Assembly: GCF_007858435.1 (NCBI RefSeq)
Contig: NZ_VIGW01000003.1
Span: forward strand, 310,001-374,000
Source of the DNA: Tsukamurella asaccharolytica
Lineage (GTDB): Bacteria; Actinomycetota; Actinomycetes; Mycobacteriales; Mycobacteriaceae
DNA: 64,000 nt
Direction: 5' to 3'
Shown piece after piece: positions 2-9,279 of the stretch. A program made the translations under genes and the position numbers. The notes under the pieces were generated by a model. It was given only the letters and a program-made list of their open reading frames with translations, was not told the origin of the DNA and did not search any database. Each line of letters begins with the position of its first letter. Position 1 is the stretch's first letter.

Positions 2-3000
2 GAACTGGACAGCCGCGAGAAGCGCGCGCTGGTGTTCACCGACAGCGTGCAGGACGCCGCCCACCGCGCGGGCTTCGTCCAGGCGCGCTCGCACGCGCTC
101 ACGCTGCGCACCCTGATCCGGCAGGCGCTCAACGACGGTCCCTCCGACCTCGACTCACTCACCCACCGCGTGCTCGCGCTGGCGGGCGACGATCAAGCGG
201 CACGATTCCGGCTCCTCCCACCCGAACTCGCCGAGCGGAGCGACTTCGCGAAGTTCTGGACCGCGAAGACCGCCGCAGGTGTTCCGCTCAAACTGCGCAA
301 TGCCATGGCGCGCCGGCTGGCCCTGGACACCGCACTCGAGTTCGGCCTGCGGTCCGGGGTCGGCCGCACGATGGAGCGCACCGGTACGGCTCTCGCCTAC
401 CTGGACGTGCCCACCTCGAAGCTGCTCGCCATCGGGCACGAGGTGGTTCGTTCCCCGGACGTGCAGACGTCTCTCGATGATCCCGAGGACGCGATCCTGC
501 TCCGTTGGATCCAAGGTGTCCTCCTGCACCTACGACAGCGGGGCGCGATCGCGCACCCGTGGTTCGAGCGATATCGCCAGGAGGACGGCAACCGGTGGTG
601 GATCACCGGCGGCCGCAAGCGGGGTGAGGGGATGCCCGGGTTCGGCCGCGGCTCCTCGGCGCCCGCCTACCCGATCACGGGCAAGAGCGGCGAGACAGAT
701 CTGGAGCCGATCGCCTCTCCGCGCGGTTGGTATGCGAAGTGGACCGCCAAGTCGTTGGGAATGACGGCGATCGAGGGTGGCACGCTGGCCCGCATCCTGT
801 TCGATCGCCTGCACCACCGGGACGTGGTGGAGCGCACCACCACCCAGTCCGGGGCCCAGACGTACGGCCTGCCTCCCACATCGGTGATCGCACGCACCGT
901 CACGGCACGGGAACTCGCCGACGATGCAGTGTCACTGATCTGCTCGACGTGCCGCGCGCCGCTGTACTCCGCTCCGGAGGTCGTACAGCAGATGCTGGGC
1001 GCCCCCTGCCTCGTCCAGCGCTGCGAGGGGACGTTGCAGCGCCATCACATCGACGACAACTTCTACCGGCACATGTACGCCTCCACGGACATTCGCCGTG
1101 TGGTGGCGCGCGAACACACCAGTCTGCTGCCCGACGAGAAGCGCCTCGAGTACGAGAACCGTTTCAAGATGACCGATCCCCCGCCGAACGCGCCGAACGT
1201 CCTCGTCGCCACACCCACCCTCGAGATGGGCATCGACATCGGCGATCTCTCGGCGGTCATGCTTTCGTCCCTGCCCCGCACCGTCGCGTCGTACCTGCAG
1301 CGCGTAGGCCGCGCCGGCCGACTCACCGGCAACGCCCTGGCCCTGGCGTACGTCACGGGACGCGGCGATCAGCTCCCGCGCTTCACCCGACCGGACGAGA
1401 CGATCAACGGCACTGTACGTCCGCCGGCTACGTATCTCGACGCCGAGGAGATCCTGCGGCGCCAGTTCACCGCGTCCGTCGCCGATATCCTGGCCCGCCG
1501 CCCCGACACACCCCACCCGCACACCACCCCGGATGCACTGAAATCGACGGGACCGCAGTCCTACCTGGGAGCGTTGATCGCCGAGGCTGAATCCCGGGCG
1601 GCGGACCTGGTCGACCAGTTCCTCGGGGCGTTTCCGCCCCTGGGCGACGATGTGACCGCACACCTGCGGCAGTTCCCGGATCCGGCGGACGGCCCCGGGA
1701 CGAGCCTCCTCGCGCAACGCTGCCAACGCGCCTCGTTCGAGTGGAACCGCCGCATCGAGACGTTGCAGCACCGACTGAAGGCGGTGCGCGCACTCATCCC
1801 CGAGCTGCGGACCAGAGCGACGTCCCCTGCCGCCACCTCCGATGACAAGGACGAGCTGCGCACCGCGGAGGCCACCGCGCGTCTCATCGACAGGCAACTG
1901 ACTAACCTCAACTCAACGTACTGGATCAGCGCGCTGGAGACCTTCGGGTTGTTCCCCAACTACACGCTGCTCGACGATTCTGTGACGCTCGCCGTCTCGG
2001 TCAACTGGCGCGATCCCGACACCGAGCAGTACGAGAGCGACGACTTCGAGATCAATCGCGGCTCCGCTCAGGCACTCCGGGATTTCGCCCCCGGCTCCAC
2101 CTTCTACGCCAACGGATTCGAGATCCATATCGACGCCGTCGACCTCGGGATCGACAGCGAGGAGGTCCACGAATGGGCCTGCTGCGCCCAGTGCGGCTAC
2201 GTCGAGGACCTGTCGCAGGACGCCGCCGCGAAGGCACCGTCGAAGTGCCCCCGCTGCGGGTCGAGCTCCCTCGCCGATACCGGCCAGCGGTTGCCCGTGG
2301 TCGAACTCAAAAACGTCTCTTCGGTGATCCGCCGCGATGAGGCTACGATCGACGACGCCCGGGACGAACGGGCCCGTCAGCTGTACCGGGTGGTCACCGC
2401 CGCGGACGTCGATCCCGCCGAGATCAATTCACGGTGGTTCGTCCAGGGCCTCGGCCTCGGCGTCACGCATGTGCGGCGTCTCAAGATCCGGTGGATCAAC
2501 ATGGGGACCGGCCTCAGCTCCGGGGCGTCGCGGATCGTCGCCGGTGTCGACGTGGAGGCGTCCCTGTTCCGGGTGTGCCGGGAGTGCGGAAAGCTGGATC
2601 GATCCGCGCGCACGAACCGGCCCGCGGAGCACCGTCCGTGGTGTCCGAAGCGCGCGGCTCTCGACGAGGACGCTGTGTCGGTCGCGCTCGCTCGCGCGAT
2701 GACCACGGAGGGCCTCGTGCTGCGCCTCCCGGTCACGATCACCCTCGGCGACACGTTCGCCGTGCCGTCCCTCGCGGCCGCGCTGCTCCTCGGCCTCCGG
2801 GAGAGAATCGGAGGCGCCCCCGACCACCTCCACGTGGCGAGCATCGCGGAACCGTCGGGCGACGACACCGTGCGCCCCTCGCTCCTACTGCACGACACCG
2901 TCCCGGGCGGCACCGGCTACCTCGCCGATCTCGCCCAGCCCGACGCCGTGTGGGATCTGCTGTACCGTGCCTGGGAAGTCGTGCACGCCTGCGAATGCCA

Positions 3001-4387
3001 GAACGAGGGCAAGCTCGCGTGTGACCGGTGCCTGCTGCCGTTCGCCTCCCTCGCGGACCTGCGGTACACCTCGCGCAGCCAGGCCGAGAAGCACCTCGTC
3101 AGCCTCCTTACGGGAGATACACACGGGTACGACGAGGACGTGGAGGTACCCACTAAACGTCCGTGGGAGGTGACAGCCGTCGAGCCGGAGACGCCGGACG
3201 ACGAGTCCGACCTCGAGAAGCGGTTCCGGGTGGCCTTCCGGAAACGACTGGAGACCCTCGGCGCCACGATCTCGGAGAAGCCGACCGACCGCGGCGTCGA
3301 GTGGAAGATCGCGCTCGGTTCGGCGAACCAGTGGACACTGCAGCCGCAGCAGAACCTGCTGGGCAGCAAGCCCGACTTCGTGCTCAGCTCCACCCGATCG
3401 GGCGTGCCGCCGACCGCCATCTTCACCGACGGGTGGCAGTACCACGCGAGTTCCGCGCACAACCGGCTTGCCGACGACGCGGAGAAGCGCCGCAACCTTC
3501 GCAGCGGCGGCTATCAAGTGATCGCGGTGACGCGTGATGACGTGGACGGAAAACCAATGACATCGTCGGTGTTCCACCCCAACGCAACGCCCCTCGTGTT
3601 GAAGGCAGCGGGAGACGGCCTCGCGAAGAGCGCCGTGGACCTGGTGTTCAAGAACGCCCTGGACCTGCTCGTCGCCTGGGTGCAGAATCCGTCGCACGAG
3701 TCACGCAAGCAGTTGGCGCACTGGGCGCCGATGCTGGCAGTGTTCAGTCTCGGCGCGCAGGGCACCCGCACCTCCGCAGACTCCCCGGTGGAGGCGGCAC
3801 TGGCCCGGCTCGACGGGATCGTTCCCGCGTCCGACGGTGACCTTTTCGTCGGACGGAAGGGTGACCTTGCGTTCTCGCTGCGGCTGCGCCCCCACGGCTC
3901 GGGCGCCGAGGTCAGCGATGTGGCCGTAGTGTACGACGATGCCGAGCACACCATTTCGATCGACGGCAAGCAGTCGTGGCGGGAATGGCTGCACTGGTCG
4001 AACCTGCTCAATTTCCGGGTACTCGGTTCGGACGTGACCACGCGCCGCCACGCGGCGGCGGTGCCGCCCTCCGCATCCGTGCCGGAGAGCGCACCGTCGA
4101 ACACGGCGACGGCGACCACCCTGACGGGCGCCTGGTTGGAGGCCTTCGAGTCCACCTCCGCGCCCGAGCTGATCGCGGCGATCGCCGCGGCAAGCCTGCC
4201 GCTCCCGACCGTCGGAGAGGAGGCCGCGGGCGGTATTCCGCTCGAGATCTCCTGGCCCGCCGTGAAGGTCGTGCTGGACATCGAACTCGCCGAGGACGAA
4301 CTCGCCCAGCTGACCTCCGCCGGCTGGGCCGTCTGCGCCCCCGATGTGGACATCCTCCGAAGCACCCTGAGCGAGAAAGGTCTCTGA
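2..4387 (+). CDS. Large DUF1998-type superfamily II helicase with C-terminal Vsr-like nuclease domain (5' end outside window)
   Basis: The reading frame is open to the window edge, so the Walker A and DEAD/DEAH motifs lie upstream; 1,461 residues are visible. Bases 940-1045 encode a CxxC...C zinc-ribbon insert. Bases 1200-1330 encode the C-terminal helicase motifs: a TPTLEMGIDIGDL stretch (motif V region) and QRVGRAGR (motif VI). Bases 2180-2265 (CxxCG...CPRCG), 2570-2655 and 2980-3045 (CECQ...CDRC) form the DUF1998/MrfA-like zinc-binding region, with the typical PGGTGYL segment before the last Cys cluster. Bases 3190-3550 encode a domain with KPDFVL, IFTDGWQYH and an aDAEKRRNL helix, which resembles Vsr/DUF559-type PD-(D/E)XK endonucleases. 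Such giant helicases include DruE of Druantia and DISARM-like proteins; which subfamily this belongs to cannot be decided without the N-terminus. The stop codon overlaps the next start by one base (TGATG), so the two are translationally coupled. Confidence 0.85.
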   Translation, partial: ELDSREKRALVFTDSVQDAAHRAGFVQARSHALTLRTLIRQALNDGPSDLDSLTHRVLALAGDDQAARFRLLPPELAERSDFAKFWTAKTAAGVPLKLRNAMARRLALDTALEFGLRSGVGRTMERTGTALAYLDVPTSKLLAIGHEVVRSPDVQTSLDDPEDAILLRWIQGVLLHLRQRGAIAHPWFERYRQEDGNRWWITGGRKRGEGMPGFGRGSSAPAYPITGKSGETDLEPIASPRGWYAKWTAKSLGMTAIEGGTLARILFDRLHHRDVVERTTTQSGAQTYGLPPTSVIARTVTARELADDAVSLICSTCRAPLYSAPEVVQQMLGAPCLVQRCEGTLQRHHIDDNFYRHMYASTDIRRVVAREHTSLLPDEKRLEYENRFKMTDPPPNAPNVLVATPTLEMGIDIGDLSAVMLSSLPRTVASYLQRVGRAGRLTGNALALAYVTGRGDQLPRFTRPDETINGTVRPPATYLDAEEILRRQFTASVADILARRPDTPHPHTTPDALKSTGPQSYLGALIAEAESRAADLVDQFLGAFPPLGDDVTAHLRQFPDPADGPGTSLLAQRCQRASFEWNRRIETLQHRLKAVRALIPELRTRATSPAATSDDKDELRTAEATARLIDRQLTNLNSTYWISALETFGLFPNYTLLDDSVTLAVSVNWRDPDTEQYESDDFEINRGSAQALRDFAPGSTFYANGFEIHIDAVDLGIDSEEVHEWACCAQCGYVEDLSQDAAAKAPSKCPRCGSSSLADTGQRLPVVELKNVSSVIRRDEATIDDARDERARQLYRVVTAADVDPAEINSRWFVQGLGLGVTHVRRLKIRWINMGTGLSSGASRIVAGVDVEASLFRVCRECGKLDRSARTNRPAEHRPWCPKRAALDEDAVSVALARAMTTEGLVLRLPVTITLGDTFAVPSLAAALLLGLRERIGGAPDHLHVASIAEPSGDDTVRPSLLLHDTVPGGTGYLADLAQPDAVWDLLYRAWEVVHACECQNEGKLACDRCLLPFASLADLRYTSRSQAEKHLVSLLTGDTHGYDEDVEVPTKRPWEVTAVEPETPDDESDLEKRFRVAFRKRLETLGATISEKPTDRGVEWKIALGSANQWTLQPQQNLLGSKPDFVLSSTRSGVPPTAIFTDGWQYHASSAHNRLADDAEKRRNLRSGGYQVIAVTRDDVDGKPMTSSVFHPNATPLVLKAAGDGLAKSAVDLVFKNALDLLVAWVQNPSHESRKQLAHWAPMLAVFSLGAQGTRTSADSPVEAALARLDGIVPASDGDLFVGRKGDLAFSLRLRPHGSGAEVSDVAVVYDDAEHTISIDGKQSWREWLHWSNLLNFRVLGSDVTTRRHAAAVPPSASVPESAPSNTATATTLTGAWLEAFESTSAPELIAAIAAASLPLPTVGEEAAGGIPLEISWPAVKVVLDIELAEDELAQLTSAGWAVCAPDVDILRSTLSEKGL

Positions 4388-6609
4388 TGCCGCAGATCGT
4401 CCTCGGGCCGGCGTTGCGCAAGATCGACGGCAGCCTCCAAAAGGCCACGTACCAGTTCCTGGCGAAGCTCGCGGAGAACGATTCGACTCCCGGCCTGCAC
4501 ATCGAGCCCATCAACAACTCCGTCGACTCCAGGGTGCGGACGGGCCGCGTGGACCTGAGCTACCGCGCGGTTCTGTTCAAGCTCCAGGGCAGCGGTGGCG
4601 ACGCCGCGTACGTCTTCGCGGGCACGTACCCCCACGACGAGGCGATCGCCGTCGCGCAGAAGTCGCGACTCAACATCAACCCCCGCAACGGCATCGCCGA
4701 GCTCATTCCGGTCGACGACGAACCCGCGCCGCCGATGCCGCCCCGGCCGGTCACGCCGCCACCGCCTCCCGCGACACCGGACACGCCGCGCACGCGATCG
4801 CTGCGCGACCGGGAGTACACCGTCGAGTACCTCGCCGAGCTCGGCTTCGACGCGGGCTTCGCCGCGGGTGCGCTGGCCCTCACGGACGCGAACGAGGTGC
4901 TTGAGTACGCGGAATCCGCACCCGCTACGTGGCAGGGCCACGCCCTGCTCGACCTGTTCACCGGGGAGAGCGTCAGCATCGTCGTGGAACGGTACGGACT
5001 CGATGGCGCCGCGCCCTCCGGCGATTCGGACGACGACGTGCTCACTGCACTGCAGCACCCCTCCGCGCAGATGGAGTTCGCCTTCATCGACGGCGACGAG
5101 GAGCTTCGGAAAGCGGTCGAGGACGCCGACTTCAACGCGTGGCGGGTGTTCCTGCATCCGGAGCAGCGGGCGCTCACGACCAAGTCCTTCCGCGGATCCG
5201 CCCGGATCACGGGTGGTGCGGGGACGGGAAAGACCGTGGTCCTCGTGCACCGGGCGCGCGAGTTCGCACGCCGCAATCCTGGTGCACGCATCGTGCTGAC
5301 CACGTTCAACCGCACCCTCGCCGATAGCCTCGTCGATCAGTTGCGACTGCTCGACGCAGGGCTGCCGCTCGCGGATTCGCTGGGCTCGCCCGGAATCCAC
5401 ATCGCCAGCGTCGACTCGATCGCGCACGCCGTGATCACGCGGGCGGCCGACCTCGGTGGACGCGACGGCGATCCCGGTCCCGTCGCCGAGGTTCTCGGCC
5501 CCAGGACCGCACAGATCCGTGCCACCAGGCCTGGCCGCTGGCAGGCCGCGGCCGATCAGGCCGGCGAAGGTCTCCCCCGCGACTTGACGACACCGGGCTT
5601 CCTCGAGGCCGAGTACGCGATGGTGGTGTTGCCCAACGCGATTACCACGGCCAACGAGTACCTGAGGGTGCGACGTCCCGGCCGCGGCGTCGCCTTGAAC
5701 CGCGCACGCCGCCAGGGGGTGTGGGACGTGATCGCCGCCTACCGTGCAGCCTCGGCGGCCGAGGGCACCGTCGACTACGAGGAGAAGGCCGCGATCGCGG
5801 CCCGGGCTCTCGCCGTTTCGAGCCCACTCGCCGATCACGTGCTGGTGGACGAAGCGCAGGACCTGAGCCCGTCGCGCTTCCAATTGTTGCGTGCCCTCGC
5901 TGCCCCAGGGCCCGACGACATCTTCATCGCCGAAGACGCGCACCAACGGATCTACGGACAGAAGCTGGTGCTGAGCCACTTCGGGATCAACGTGCGCGGC
6001 CGGGCCTCACGCCTGACGCTGAACTATCGCACCACGGAACAGAACCTGCGCTACGCCCTCGGCATCCTCGAGGGCCAGGACTTCACCGATCTCGAGGGCG
6101 AGTCGGATTCGATCTCCCAGTACCGGTCGGCCCGTCGGGGACCCACGCCCCAACAGATCGCGGTGGATTCACTCGCGGAGGAGTACCGGCGCGTCGCCGA
6201 GATCGTCCAGTCCTGGATCGATGATCCGACGGTGCCCGACGACTCGATCGGGCTACTTGTGGCGACGCGCAAGGAAGCGGAGAGCCTGGTCCGGGCGCTC
6301 GGCGAGCACCAGGTGCGCGCGACCTACGTGGACCGCGAATCACCCGGCCGCAGCGGCCTCCCCCAGGTGATGACCATGCACCGCAGCAAGGGCATGGAGT
6401 TCGCTTGCGCCATTCTCGTCGGGGTCGGCGCCGCGAACGTCCCGCGCAAGTACGTCATCGACGCGCTGCCCGACGGCGATCGTGAGGATGCCCTCCAGCG
6501 CGAACGCTCCCTGCTGTACGTGGCTGCCACCCGCGCCCGCGACCAACTCGTCGTGATTTGGACCGGCGTTCCCACCAAGCTTCTACCGAAACTTCAAGAA
6601 ATGGAGTGA
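4387..6609 (+). CDS. UvrD-like superfamily I helicase with N-terminal RelE-like domain
   Basis: 740 residues. The ATG overlaps the stop of the upstream helicase gene. Residues 1 to about 110 look like a RelE/ParE-type fold: LQKATYQFLAKLAENDSTPG, then a strand pair around RVRTGRVDLSYRAVLFK, then a PHDEAI segment and INPRNG, the pattern seen in RelE-like domains at the head of some helicases. A Pro-rich linker follows (about 112-135). The helicase core has Walker A GGAGTGKT (about 276-283), a VDEAQD Walker B motif (about 486-491), a LNYRTT motif, TMHRSKGMEF (about 660) and YVAATRARDQ (about 711), all diagnostic of UvrD/PcrA ATPases that unwind 3'-5'. Whether the RelE-like part is an active RNase or only a ribosome- or nucleic-acid-binding adaptor is unknown. 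Its place between the DUF1998 helicase and the EcsC gene implies a shared operon. Confidence 0.88.
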   Translation: MPQIVLGPALRKIDGSLQKATYQFLAKLAENDSTPGLHIEPINNSVDSRVRTGRVDLSYRAVLFKLQGSGGDAAYVFAGTYPHDEAIAVAQKSRLNINPRNGIAELIPVDDEPAPPMPPRPVTPPPPPATPDTPRTRSLRDREYTVEYLAELGFDAGFAAGALALTDANEVLEYAESAPATWQGHALLDLFTGESVSIVVERYGLDGAAPSGDSDDDVLTALQHPSAQMEFAFIDGDEELRKAVEDADFNAWRVFLHPEQRALTTKSFRGSARITGGAGTGKTVVLVHRAREFARRNPGARIVLTTFNRTLADSLVDQLRLLDAGLPLADSLGSPGIHIASVDSIAHAVITRAADLGGRDGDPGPVAEVLGPRTAQIRATRPGRWQAAADQAGEGLPRDLTTPGFLEAEYAMVVLPNAITTANEYLRVRRPGRGVALNRARRQGVWDVIAAYRAASAAEGTVDYEEKAAIAARALAVSSPLADHVLVDEAQDLSPSRFQLLRALAAPGPDDIFIAEDAHQRIYGQKLVLSHFGINVRGRASRLTLNYRTTEQNLRYALGILEGQDFTDLEGESDSISQYRSARRGPTPQQIAVDSLAEEYRRVAEIVQSWIDDPTVPDDSIGLLVATRKEAESLVRALGEHQVRATYVDRESPGRSGLPQVMTMHRSKGMEFACAILVGVGAANVPRKYVIDALPDGDREDALQRERSLLYVAATRARDQLVVIWTGVPTKLLPKLQEME

Positions 6610-6612
6610 CAG

Positions 6613-7302
6613 ATGTCAGACAGGTCCAAATCTGTTGATCAGGAAGATAGTTCGTCGCAAGCAATGGCCCTGGTGAACAAAATACTCACGTTCGCGGTGA
6701 CAGGCGGCGGACCGATCAAACCTGCCGCTGAGGTCGCCGAAGAAGCTTTGCGCACACATGGCGACCCCGAAGTCGCGATCGATCGACTATTGGGCACGCA
6801 TCGTCGTATCGTCACCGCAACCGGATTCGCCAGTGGGTTCGGTGGGCTACCCACAATGGCGGTCGCGATACCCACTGACATCACTGTCTTCTACATGAAC
6901 GCGGCACGCCTCTCCGCGGCGGTTGCGCACATCCGGGGGTATGACATCGAGTCCGAGGAGGTGCGGAGTGCGATCTTGATCTCGCTACTCGGTGCCAGTG
7001 CAGGTGGAATCCTCGGCAGTGCCGGCGCGCAGATCGGCAACAAGATCGCGGTCGCGCAACTCAAGAGGCTTCCTGGAACAGTCCTGACTCAGATCAACAA
7101 GGCCGTCGGGTTCCGGCTACTCACGAAGTTCGGGACGAAGGGCTCCATCAACCTCGTGAAGGTTGTCCCGGTGGTCGGCGGCGGAGTCGGGGCGGGATTC
7201 AACGCTATAACGATCACGCAGATTCACAAGTACTCGAAGAAGCTCTTTGTTCCGCTCGAGGAACAACGCGACGGCGATGAACACGGCGTCGGACAAGATT
7301 GA
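6613..7302 (+). CDS. EcsC family protein
   Basis: 229 residues, starting 3 bases after the UvrD-type gene, so very probably cotranscribed. The central part matches the EcsC family: a GTHRRIVTATGFASGFGGLP segment, a hydrophobic stretch MAVAIPTDITVFYMNAARL, an IRGYDIESEEVR segment, a glycine-rich hydrophobic segment near residues 125-145, and a C-terminal VVPVVGGGVGAGFN hydrophobic stretch. EcsC-family proteins are poorly understood and likely membrane-associated. Base composition differs from the neighbours: bases 6661-6720 are 57% G+C, well below the surrounding sequence, and codons such as AAA, ATA and TTG are common. This suggests recent transfer, or a separate origin within the island. A membrane protein at the end of a two-helicase operon could be an effector, but that is inference. 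Confidence 0.75.
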   Translation: MSDRSKSVDQEDSSSQAMALVNKILTFAVTGGGPIKPAAEVAEEALRTHGDPEVAIDRLLGTHRRIVTATGFASGFGGLPTMAVAIPTDITVFYMNAARLSAAVAHIRGYDIESEEVRSAILISLLGASAGGILGSAGAQIGNKIAVAQLKRLPGTVLTQINKAVGFRLLTKFGTKGSINLVKVVPVVGGGVGAGFNAITITQIHKYSKKLFVPLEEQRDGDEHGVGQD

Positions 7303-7454: not shown

Positions 7455-7774
7455 CTAGGCCACCGTCGGGTCCCGGAGCACTTCGGCGCCCACCACGTCC
7501 GCCATGATCGCGGGGTCGATCGTCCGGCCCGCGCGGATCACGCTGAGTGTCCCGCGGGACTCGAACACGACCGCGGCCACTTCGCCCATCTCGGTGACAC
7601 CAGCCTGCCGGAGGTGGGGCAGCAACTCCGCGTTCGACACATGGCAGCGACTCAGGGCGTCGTGCGCTGCCCCAAGACGCGCACCACGATCAACAGCGCC
7701 GCGTACATGCCGATCGTTGCGAAGACCACCGCCCACGCCTCGCTGCCAGCGATTCCCAACTCGTCGAGCACCAT
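7455..7774 (-). pseudogene. Remnant of a DUF421 (YetF-type) membrane protein with an internal deletion
   Basis: Two pieces of one protein family lie next to each other in different frames. From the ATG at 7774 (GGAG ribosome-binding site just upstream) 40 codons encode the family's first membrane helix and its R-[VL]-[LM]-G-[QK]-R-T-T signature (VVRVLGQRTT), ending at a TGA at 7654-7652. From about 7660 down to the TAG at 7455 another frame encodes the family's C-terminal domain (a NAELLPHLRQAGV helix, then EMGEVAAVVFES and GTLSVIR). The other membrane helices and the first part of the soluble domain are missing, so a deletion has removed the middle and broken the frame. The C-terminal frame is open but has no plausible start of its own. 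The remnant lies right beside the accessory island and may mark disturbance of this junction. Confidence 0.75.
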
Positions 7775-7830: not shown

Positions 7831-9162
7831 TCAGGTCAGGTAGCGGTACGCGGGCGAGCCCGGCTCGAGCCGCTCGCAGTGCAGCCGGGATTCGTCCATC
7901 CGGCCGAGCAGCGCGCCGAGGTCGTCGGCGCGCCCCAGCTCCACGCCCACCAACGCCTCACCGGTGTCGCGGTTGTTGCGCTTGACGTACTCGAACAGGG
8001 TGATGTCGTCGTCGGGGCCGAGGACGTCGTCCAGGAATCGACGGAGCGCACCGGGCTCCTGGGGGAAGGCGACGAGGAAGTAATGCTTGAGTCCCTGGTG
8101 CACCAGGGAACGCTCGATCACCTCGTTGTACCGCGAGACGTCGTTGTTGCCGCCCGAGAGCAGGCACACGACCGTCGCACCGGGCTCGAAACGCAACTGC
8201 GCGAGCGCGGCCACGGACAGCGCGCCCGCGGGCTCCGCGATCACGCCCTCGTTCTGATACAGGTCGAGCATGGCGGTGCAGATGGCGCCCTCGTCCACCT
8301 CCAGGACGCCCAGCTCCCCGGCCGCCACGTCGTGGACGGAGTGCGCGGGCCACACGACCGCCCCCTCGGACGATGCGACGTCGTAGCCGATGGAGCCGAT
8401 CCGCTTGACGGCCGCGCCGTCGACGAACGGGTCGATGGTCGGCAGGTCGATCGGCCCCCCGGCCTCGAGCGCCCGCGCGAGCGACGGCGCCCCCGCGGGC
8501 TCGGCGCCGACGATCGTGGCGGAGCCGGACTGTGACCGCAGGTACCGGGTGACGCCTGCGAAGCAGCCGGCGCCGCCGACGGGCATGACGGTCACGTCGG
8601 GCACCACGCCGCCGAGTTGCTCGACCAACTCGACGCCGATGGTGCCCTGCCCCGAGGTGGTGCGCGGATCGTCGAAGGCGTGCACCCAGGTGGCGCCAGT
8701 CGACGCGACGTCCTCCTGCGCGGCGGCGGCCGCGGCGTCGTAGGTCTCGCCGGTGGCGATCAGCTCGACGTACCGGCCGCCGTGGGCGCGGATGCGGTCC
8801 CGCTTCTGCTTCGGCGTGGTGGTCGGCACGTAGATCCGGCCGTGCACCTCCATGGCGCGGCACGCGAACGCGACGCCCTGCGCGTGGTTGCCGGCCGAGG
8901 CGGCCACGACGCCGGCGGCCTTCTCCTGCTCGGTGAGCTGCGCCATGAGGTTGTACGCGCCGCGAATCTTGTAGGAGCGGACCACCTGCAGGTCCTCACG
9001 CTTGAGGTAGACCTTAGCGCCGGTCAGCGCGGAGAGCCGGTCGCAGAGCTGCAGCGGACTCACCGCCACCACCCCGGCGAGCCGCGCGCGGGCCTCGATG
9101 ATCGAGTGCACCGTCAGGTCGGCGGCGGCACTGGACATCGATGAGGTAGACATGCGCGTCAT
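7831..9162 (-). CDS. ilvA: Threonine ammonia-lyase (threonine dehydratase), biosynthetic
   Basis: 443 residues from the ATG at 9162; another in-frame ATG at 9153 is equally possible. The PLP enzyme deaminates L-threonine to 2-oxobutanoate, the first step towards isoleucine. The PLP lysine is in SYKIRGAYN (about residue 63), and ASAGNHAQGVAF and the glycine-rich VGGAGCF loop bind substrate and phosphate. The last ~85 residues (FLVAFPQEPGALRRFLDDVL onward) form one ACT-like Thr_dehydrat_C domain, the short form common in actinobacteria. Short-form enzymes keep a single regulatory domain, so isoleucine feedback may differ from the E. coli enzyme. The gene stands alone, divergent from the sensor kinase gene; no leader or attenuator was recognised. 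Confidence 0.95.
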   Translation of the reverse strand: MTRMSTSSMSSAAADLTVHSIIEARARLAGVVAVSPLQLCDRLSALTGAKVYLKREDLQVVRSYKIRGAYNLMAQLTEQEKAAGVVAASAGNHAQGVAFACRAMEVHGRIYVPTTTPKQKRDRIRAHGGRYVELIATGETYDAAAAAAQEDVASTGATWVHAFDDPRTTSGQGTIGVELVEQLGGVVPDVTVMPVGGAGCFAGVTRYLRSQSGSATIVGAEPAGAPSLARALEAGGPIDLPTIDPFVDGAAVKRIGSIGYDVASSEGAVVWPAHSVHDVAAGELGVLEVDEGAICTAMLDLYQNEGVIAEPAGALSVAALAQLRFEPGATVVCLLSGGNNDVSRYNEVIERSLVHQGLKHYFLVAFPQEPGALRRFLDDVLGPDDDITLFEYVKRNNRDTGEALVGVELGRADDLGALLGRMDESRLHCERLEPGSPAYRYLT

Positions 9163-9279
9163 TTTCCCACTCGCTTCAGGATCGGCGTCACCCGCCCAGG
9201 TCAGATGCCACCGACCAGCACCATCGCGACGCGGACGCCGGCACTCTGCCATCATTGCCAGGTGTTCGACGGTGACCGC

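Follow-up and report, generated by a model that had tools for sequence, protein, structure and literature searches.

A putative ARMADA type II operon with an accessory EcsC-family gene beside a Druantia III-like pair in Tsukamurella asaccharolytica

ARMADA type II was described in 2025 as an anti-phage system in Escherichia coli (Bell et al., PMC12458937). As set out in that report, the system is defined by a BrxHII/RapA-like SNF2 helicase, a PglX-like methyltransferase and a YprA helicase encoded in strict order, its fourth component is a GajB-like helicase with an N-terminal RelE-like domain, and ARMADA is abundant in Actinomycetota (PMC12458937). Each of the E. coli proteins ArmA to ArmD was reported to be needed, motif residues matter (some of them partly), and infected cells stay viable (PMC12458937). 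For Druantia III of E. coli, DruH is described as probably sensing structural proteins of the phage, and DruE as engaging intermediates that contain single-stranded DNA (PMC13192584). The Druantia III pair of Mycolicibacterium smegmatis (MSMEG_1253-1254; 2026) is reported to consist of DruH and DruE of 1132 and 1667 amino acids encoded by overlapping genes, with a lysine at K119 of DruE, and DruH alone is toxic in that host and is neutralized by DruE (PMC13316683). Here we compare these systems with a locus at the left end of a 64,000-nucleotide stretch of the Tsukamurella asaccharolytica genome (the window; C31:310001-374000, on a contig of a 4.12-Mb draft genome, with window base 1 at C31:310001), which holds two helicase genes and an EcsC-family gene. 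Contigs, genomes and stretches read from other genomes are referred to by C, G and L numbers.

Sequence comparison makes it very probable that the two helicases of the window represent ArmC and ArmD, encoded in a complete ARMADA type II operon (ArmA-B-C-D) that is followed by one accessory EcsC gene and stands head-to-head with an actinobacterial Druantia III-like pair in a single defense island of approximately 26 kb. The reading frame at 2..4387 is open and runs off the left edge of the window, and the original prediction had recommended extending the sequence on that side. Read leftward past the window, the contig supplied the rest of this helicase (the first 636 codons of armC), two entire operon genes, armB and armA, and the druH-druE pair. 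The operon consists of five co-directional genes (C31:300419-317302). A 992-amino-acid SNF2 helicase gene, a 1562-amino-acid methyltransferase gene and armC follow one another with 2-base gaps between neighbors; armD starts at 4387, the last base of the armC stop (TGATG), and a gap of 3 bases separates armD from the 229-amino-acid gene (6613-7302). The frames and spacing of the three window genes, with a 1-base overlap and a 3-base gap, are as originally claimed, and their tight packing as a unit stands, except that they are the last three genes of a longer operon. What looked like a new three-gene system is the cut-off 3' end of a known four-gene anti-phage system. The genes of the island are as follows.

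C31:300419-303397, plus strand, outside the window to its left: armA, SNF2 helicase, 992 amino acids.
C31:303400-308088, plus strand, outside the window to its left: armB, Eco57I-type methyltransferase, 1562 amino acids.
Window 2..4387 (3' part; whole gene C31:308091-314387, its first 1910 bases left of the window), plus strand: armC, YprA/DUF1998 helicase with a putative C-terminal Vsr-like region, 2098 amino acids.
Window 4387..6609, plus strand: armD, UvrD/GajB-like helicase, 740 amino acids, Walker A K282 and Walker B D488, whose N-terminal region would be the one described by Bell et al. as RelE-like for ARMADA II.
Window 6613..7302, plus strand: accessory EcsC-family gene, 229 amino acids, Pfam EcsC, PADLOC PDC-S29.
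C31:296517-299900, minus strand, outside the window to its left: druH-like gene, 1127 amino acids.
C31:291592-296520, minus strand, outside the window to its left: druE-like gene, 1642 amino acids.

The gene order of SNF2 helicase, methyltransferase and YprA helicase agrees with the strict order published for ARMADA II. By Pfam, ArmC contains DEAD, Helicase_C and MZB (the DUF1998 region) and ArmD contains UvrD, in agreement with the DUF1998 helicase, UvrD helicase and EcsC families named in the original prediction. Taken together, Pfam, PADLOC and NCBIfam describe the five products as SNF2/DrmD-like; an Eco57I-type methyltransferase (PADLOC type IIG, DrmMI); DruE-like with a MrfA zinc-binding domain; GajB-like UvrD; and EcsC/PDC-S29. 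No family named ARMADA was present among the best 25 PADLOC matches per protein; the proteins matched DruE, DrmD, REase_MTase_IIG and GajB models. Two E. coli copies served as yardsticks, one on an IncY plasmid and one on the chromosome of strain KCTC 2571. On that chromosome Zorya II, which the record names, precedes six genes, and these were labeled DruH, DruE and ArmA to ArmD from the order given for ATCC 8739. We take KCTC 2571 to be the same strain as ATCC 8739. BLASTP against ArmA, ArmB, ArmC and ArmD of KCTC 2571 gave identities of 34, 33, 29 and 31%, respectively, over most of each protein, and the identities of the plasmid copy to the operon proteins were comparable; the similarity of the source ArmD to E. 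coli ArmD spans residues 9-733. The comparison of published mutated residues covered seven of eight, with ArmB G605 left out, and in the E. coli plasmid proteins all seven are found at the positions published (ArmA K136 and D236, ArmB N971, ArmC K110 and D234, and ArmD K266 and D454). The matching residues in the source genome are ArmA K162 and D261, ArmB N939, ArmC K114 and D238, and ArmD K282 and D488. In a YprA tree of 31 proteins, built with a quick method that flagged a long branch for E. coli DruE, the window ArmC falls among 20 ArmC rows that include E. coli ArmC, and the 11 DruE rows lie across one branch with a support of 100. The ArmC proteins of G262, G151, G275, G216 and G310 and the remnant in G172 were left out of this tree.

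The two genes left of armA, on the opposite strand, overlap by 4 bases, and the 1642-amino-acid frame is intact. The product of the latter scored best with PADLOC DruE profiles, grouped with the 10 other DruE rows in the YprA tree and has the Pfam content DEAD, Helicase_C and DUF1998 region, with no other domain. DruE (E <= 1e-60) was found in 10 genomes of an order sample of 298, the source genome included, and a homolog of the 1127-amino-acid partner lies directly beside it, with a significant match in 9 of the 10 genomes and a weak tblastn match in the adjacent frame in G201. The partner (26-30% identity in near-full-length matches) is less conserved than DruE (43-51%). Genus g2, to which G172 belongs, also has the partner in 18 of 297 genomes, 15 of them at 34-39%. 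Fourteen partner proteins had no PADLOC or Pfam match at the limits used, the one scanned against NCBIfam had no match there, a profile of the 14 found no convincing PDB chain, and the search of plasmids with the 1127-amino-acid partner found no relative. Within the source genus, the source genome alone has DruE (E <= 1e-40), except for a partial match at 31% in G306.

Several points weigh against this assignment of the island. The RelE-like domain of ArmD and the Vsr-like domain of ArmC, both part of the original prediction, had no Pfam match in the source proteins; what speaks for them is weak, consisting of a sub-threshold ParE_toxin match (E 0.16) in one of four ArmD homologs scanned and a PD...DG...H motif at 1761 in ArmC versus 1747 in E. 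coli ArmC. ArmC is only 29% identical to its E. coli counterpart, the published representative WP_000937974.1 was not among the sequences compared, and ARMADA type I lies outside the sample of the YprA tree. The 1127-amino-acid partner showed no significant similarity to proteobacterial DruH. When 31 actinobacterial sequences were compared by hhalign with 7 proteobacterial ones, the N-terminal parts matched weakly, at similar positions (E 0.024 with a probability of 2%, versus E 0.71 for the reversed control). Of eight further proteobacterial records, two were left out, one unannotated and one with a truncated gene. The source pair is taken as Druantia III as in M. smegmatis from its size, gene overlap and K119, which the source DruE also has, and not from direct alignment; when the published M. 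smegmatis DruH mutant positions were transferred by one offset, the source agreed at 3 of 11, the best of 18 rows agreed at 6 of 11, and 300 shuffles of the source sequence reached 6 once.

The fifth gene of the operon matches Pfam EcsC (5.6e-8) and positions 1-216 of the 220-position PADLOC profile PDC-S29 (2e-73), which appears as a table entry in PMC11514479. Its lower G+C content, noted in the original prediction, is real (58.8% versus 71.4% for the window). Two Gly/Ala-rich, hydrophobic stretches, near residues 116-139 and 178-202, reach a hydropathy of up to 1.66 in a span of 19 residues and would suit membrane association, and the gene is likely co-expressed with the operon because it starts 3 bases after armD. 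A tblastn search with the source EcsC found no match of >= 60 bits in the 20 downstream stretches of other ArmB loci, and none of the other 19 actinobacterial ARMADA loci followed beyond ArmD (17 order-level loci plus G301 and G310) has EcsC there. A match at 1e-5 anywhere in the genome was found in 5 of 27 other ArmB genomes (G004, G015, G145, G151 and G215). Among these, G151 alone has the match near ARMADA, at 31% identity, on the other strand and inside the stretch separating armB from armC. EcsC-like genes occur in 64 of the 298 order genomes at 1e-5 and in 205 plasmid records at 1e-10, several of them in contexts without a visible defense gene. The closer relatives, in G154 (63%) and G148 (59%), belong to genomes without ArmB matches, and the G154 gene ends a same-strand run with a helicase, an MzaB-like ATPase and a weak PLD/DrmC-like protein. 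Of the other 15 genomes in the genus, 12 have a distant paralog (at most 41 bits) and three lack one; the source genome has this paralog as well. A search for close EcsC relatives gave one at 33% in GTDB genome contigs and none in viral contigs, and PDB sequences gave no match at E 1. A literature search pairing EcsC with defense terms found no paper using the word EcsC among those listed, which is no proof of absence. The co-occurrence counts in the order loci and the genus rule out EcsC as a core part of the ARMADA operon; it is a locus-specific accessory gene and not a conserved ARMADA partner.

It is quite conceivable, if somewhat short of probable, that EcsC is an unrelated passenger behind armD with no defense role, a reading that concerns EcsC alone and is compatible with an ARMADA operon. 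Its lower G+C content, its lack of co-occurrence with ARMADA and the commonness of EcsC-like genes, several without visible defense neighbors, would all be expected of a passenger, but the gene follows armD in the same direction after only 3 bases, its family is the defense candidate PDC-S29, and some other ARMADA loci hold defense-type genes at the same spot. The region just behind armD was read in 23 other loci with mechanical gene calls. In five of these (6 of 24 with the window), a same-strand gene begins <=10 bases from the armD stop, and none was called that close in the other 18. The five genes are as follows.

G248, same strand: GmrSD/DUF262 plus AlbA domain.
G285, same strand: 1577-amino-acid protein whose C-terminal two thirds are DruH, followed by DruE.
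G301, L112:8550-10289: AAA_15 plus a weak OLD-type TOPRIM match; PADLOC Old, 2e-33.
G310, same strand: a second UvrD/GajB-like gene.
E. coli plasmid, same strand: 104 amino acids, no PADLOC match.

In G301, an OLD/GajA-like ATPase gene directly after a GajB-like armD amounts to a Gabija-like pairing within an ARMADA locus. The G285 gene (L076:8865-13598) encodes a DruH extended at its N terminus by roughly 400-450 residues; 4 bases are shared between the gene start and the armD stop, and the whole protein had no Pfam or PADLOC match. The position 3' of armD as a variable slot for defense genes should be taken as a lead, not as an established rule, because the set is small and the gene calls are mechanical. 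We tentatively hypothesize, while considering it rather doubtful, that the 3' end of ARMADA II, above all in actinobacteria, is a docking slot that couples other defense modules to armD (EcsC here, the OLD/GajA-like gene of G301, the UvrD/GajB-like gene of G310, the GmrSD-type gene of G248 and the DruH-DruE super-operon of G285), with EcsC as a membrane-acting back-up that would damage the membrane when DNA-level defense fails.

It is very unlikely that the trio in the window is, as originally predicted, an undescribed three-gene defense system with EcsC as its dedicated membrane effector. The tight gene spacing, the PADLOC defense-candidate match of EcsC and the company kept by its 63% relative in G154 could be read in this way, but two further operon genes precede the trio, none of the 17 order-level loci that have ArmD carries EcsC after it, nor do G301 and G310, G301 (same site, ArmC 77%) has another gene in the EcsC place, and in E. 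coli a cluster of the four genes gives protection with no EcsC. A conserved linkage of the trio had been set beforehand as a test of this idea and is absent across the ARMADA loci read; the combination does not stand as an unnamed system, with its helicases assigned to ArmC and ArmD of ARMADA II and EcsC behind ArmD in 0 of 19 loci. PADLOC and NCBIfam matches to DrmD, DrmMI and DruE might suggest a variant of class 1 DISARM or of Druantia in place of ARMADA, but this is hardly credible, as the listed NCBIfam matches are all under the curated cut-offs (DrmD 324.5 versus 610 bits) and ArmC groups with E. coli ArmC and not DruE, and membership in DISARM class 1 itself was ruled out by those cut-offs, by the presence of helicase and DUF1998 region in one protein and by the absence from the operon of separate drmA/drmB genes and of a gene for the PLD nuclease DrmC.

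Returning to the ARMADA II operon, ArmB matches (E <= 1e-60) were found in 28 of the 298 order genomes, the source genome counted. The downstream side of ArmB was taken from 19 of the 27 other genomes (20 loci), leaving out G004, G145, G163, G175, G205, G209, G219 and G272, and some of these stretches are short (1.7 kb in G216, 3.5 kb in G248). ArmC and then ArmD follow in 17 of the 20, two have a partial ArmC with no ArmD in reach, and G254 has neither before the contig ends. In G151 (L080) and G275 (L083), ~14.5 kb of other genes, many of them called mechanically on the opposite strand, lie between armB and armC. Three of the 16 genomes of the source genus have ArmC: the source genome, G301 at the same site (77%) and G310 elsewhere (38%). 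A stretch of 28,474 bp in G310 is 99.996% identical to a Tsukamurella tyrosinosolvens record. The ARMADA locus of Tsukamurella tyrosinosolvens NZ_LR134452.1 (L149:1-20842) has a helicase gene and a separate DUF1998 gene before it and a second UvrD gene and IS21 genes after it, and its ArmC region is annotated as two genes of 756 and 5511 bases.

ArmB matches are present in 5 of the 10 DruE genomes versus 28 of 298 overall (hypergeometric 9e-4; 5e-3 without the source genome; shared ancestry ignored). The two systems touch in three genomes, with a different orientation in each: divergent in the source genome (G000), in one direction with overlapping genes in G285 and tail-to-tail in G012. G205 and G279 have both systems in separate places. 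In G172 (L170:459-6246), a Druantia pair lies co-directionally alongside a damaged ARMADA II that retains armA, armD and only the end of armC. In the tree, the source DruE groups with that of G285, whereas the source ArmC groups with that of G301, a genome without DruE, and this suggests that ARMADA and Druantia have been joined repeatedly. The several arrangements suggest that the synergy described from E. coli extends beyond a single enterobacterial island.

The placement of a defense island related to DISARM and Druantia in an otherwise conserved region, as originally predicted, was borne out. The flanking genes are housekeeping-like and kept in the genus; their names (ilvA, treZ and LLM-type) are a reading of the sequences with no family search behind them. 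To the right of the operon lie two further features.

Window 7458..7736, minus strand: DUF421 (YetF C-terminal) gene fragment, PF04239, 7.8e-7, a relic at the insertion hotspot.
Window 7831..9255, minus strand: ilvA-like gene (named from its sequence), the conserved right neighbor of the hotspot.

Among the other 15 genomes of the genus, 12 have an empty site, where a 199-amino-acid gene and the ilvA-like gene adjoin with no more than about 0.7 kb between them. The remaining three have inserts there: ARMADA in G301, ~7 kb with HsdM- and HsdR-type genes in G298, and ~9 kb in G307, where a YoeB-YefM pair accompanies peptidase, DHDPS-type and MFS genes. The locus is an insertion hotspot and not the site of a single event, because the same site holds different inserts in these three genomes. 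The broken DUF421 gene that had been proposed to mark the right edge is a real fragment but is not specific to the source insertion, with short matches to that gap also in G302 and G307. No transfer RNA gene that could serve as an integration site was found in C31:252001-322000, and the 1.2 kb read near the right junction contain direct repeats of two short families and one imperfect inverted pair. In G270 and G246 (L174 and L175; genus g6), a homolog of the DruE partner lies between treZ-like and ilvA-like genes, the same interval as that of the source island, with no DruE in the stretch read.

A working scheme can be proposed for the island. ArmB, an adenine methyltransferase, probably marks self DNA, and ArmA (an SNF2-type translocase), ArmC (a YprA helicase with a putative Vsr-type nuclease) and ArmD may act on incoming foreign DNA by binding it, translocating along it and either degrading or blocking it, while the host cell survives; the cutting itself is conjectural. 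DruH-DruE, by analogy with the reports from M. smegmatis and E. coli, could form a second, infection-triggered layer, and EcsC may act as an accessory, probably membrane-associated factor.

The analysis removes a false lead, as the apparent new system is assigned to ARMADA, and its added value lies in the context, namely how defense systems are bundled in one island. Possibly new, in a modest way, are the differing tightly spaced genes behind armD and the recurrence of Druantia III-like pairs beside ARMADA II, and the variable gene after armD is a place to look for ARMADA accessory factors. Compared with ARMADA II of E. coli NCTC 12900 and ATCC 8739, the source operon has the same four genes, order and seven motif residues, and in E. 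coli the system also adjoins Druantia III; it differs in its 29-34% identity, in its fifth gene (EcsC), in the lack of a Zorya operon among the genes of the island, in the lack of a transfer RNA gene in C31:252001-322000 and in its Druantia-like pair, which is divergent and not co-directional. It resembles Gabija (GajA-GajB) in its GajB-like ArmD, and an OLD/GajA-like gene stands behind ArmD in G301, whereas the window ArmD has no GajA-like gene behind it. The source EcsC matches nearly the whole of PDC-S29, which is a defense candidate only. With Druantia III of M. smegmatis the pair shares two overlapping genes for approximately 1130 and 1650 amino acids (1127/1642 versus 1132/1667) and a DruE whose Pfam domains are limited to DEAD, Helicase_C and the DUF1998 region, and differs in adjoining ARMADA.

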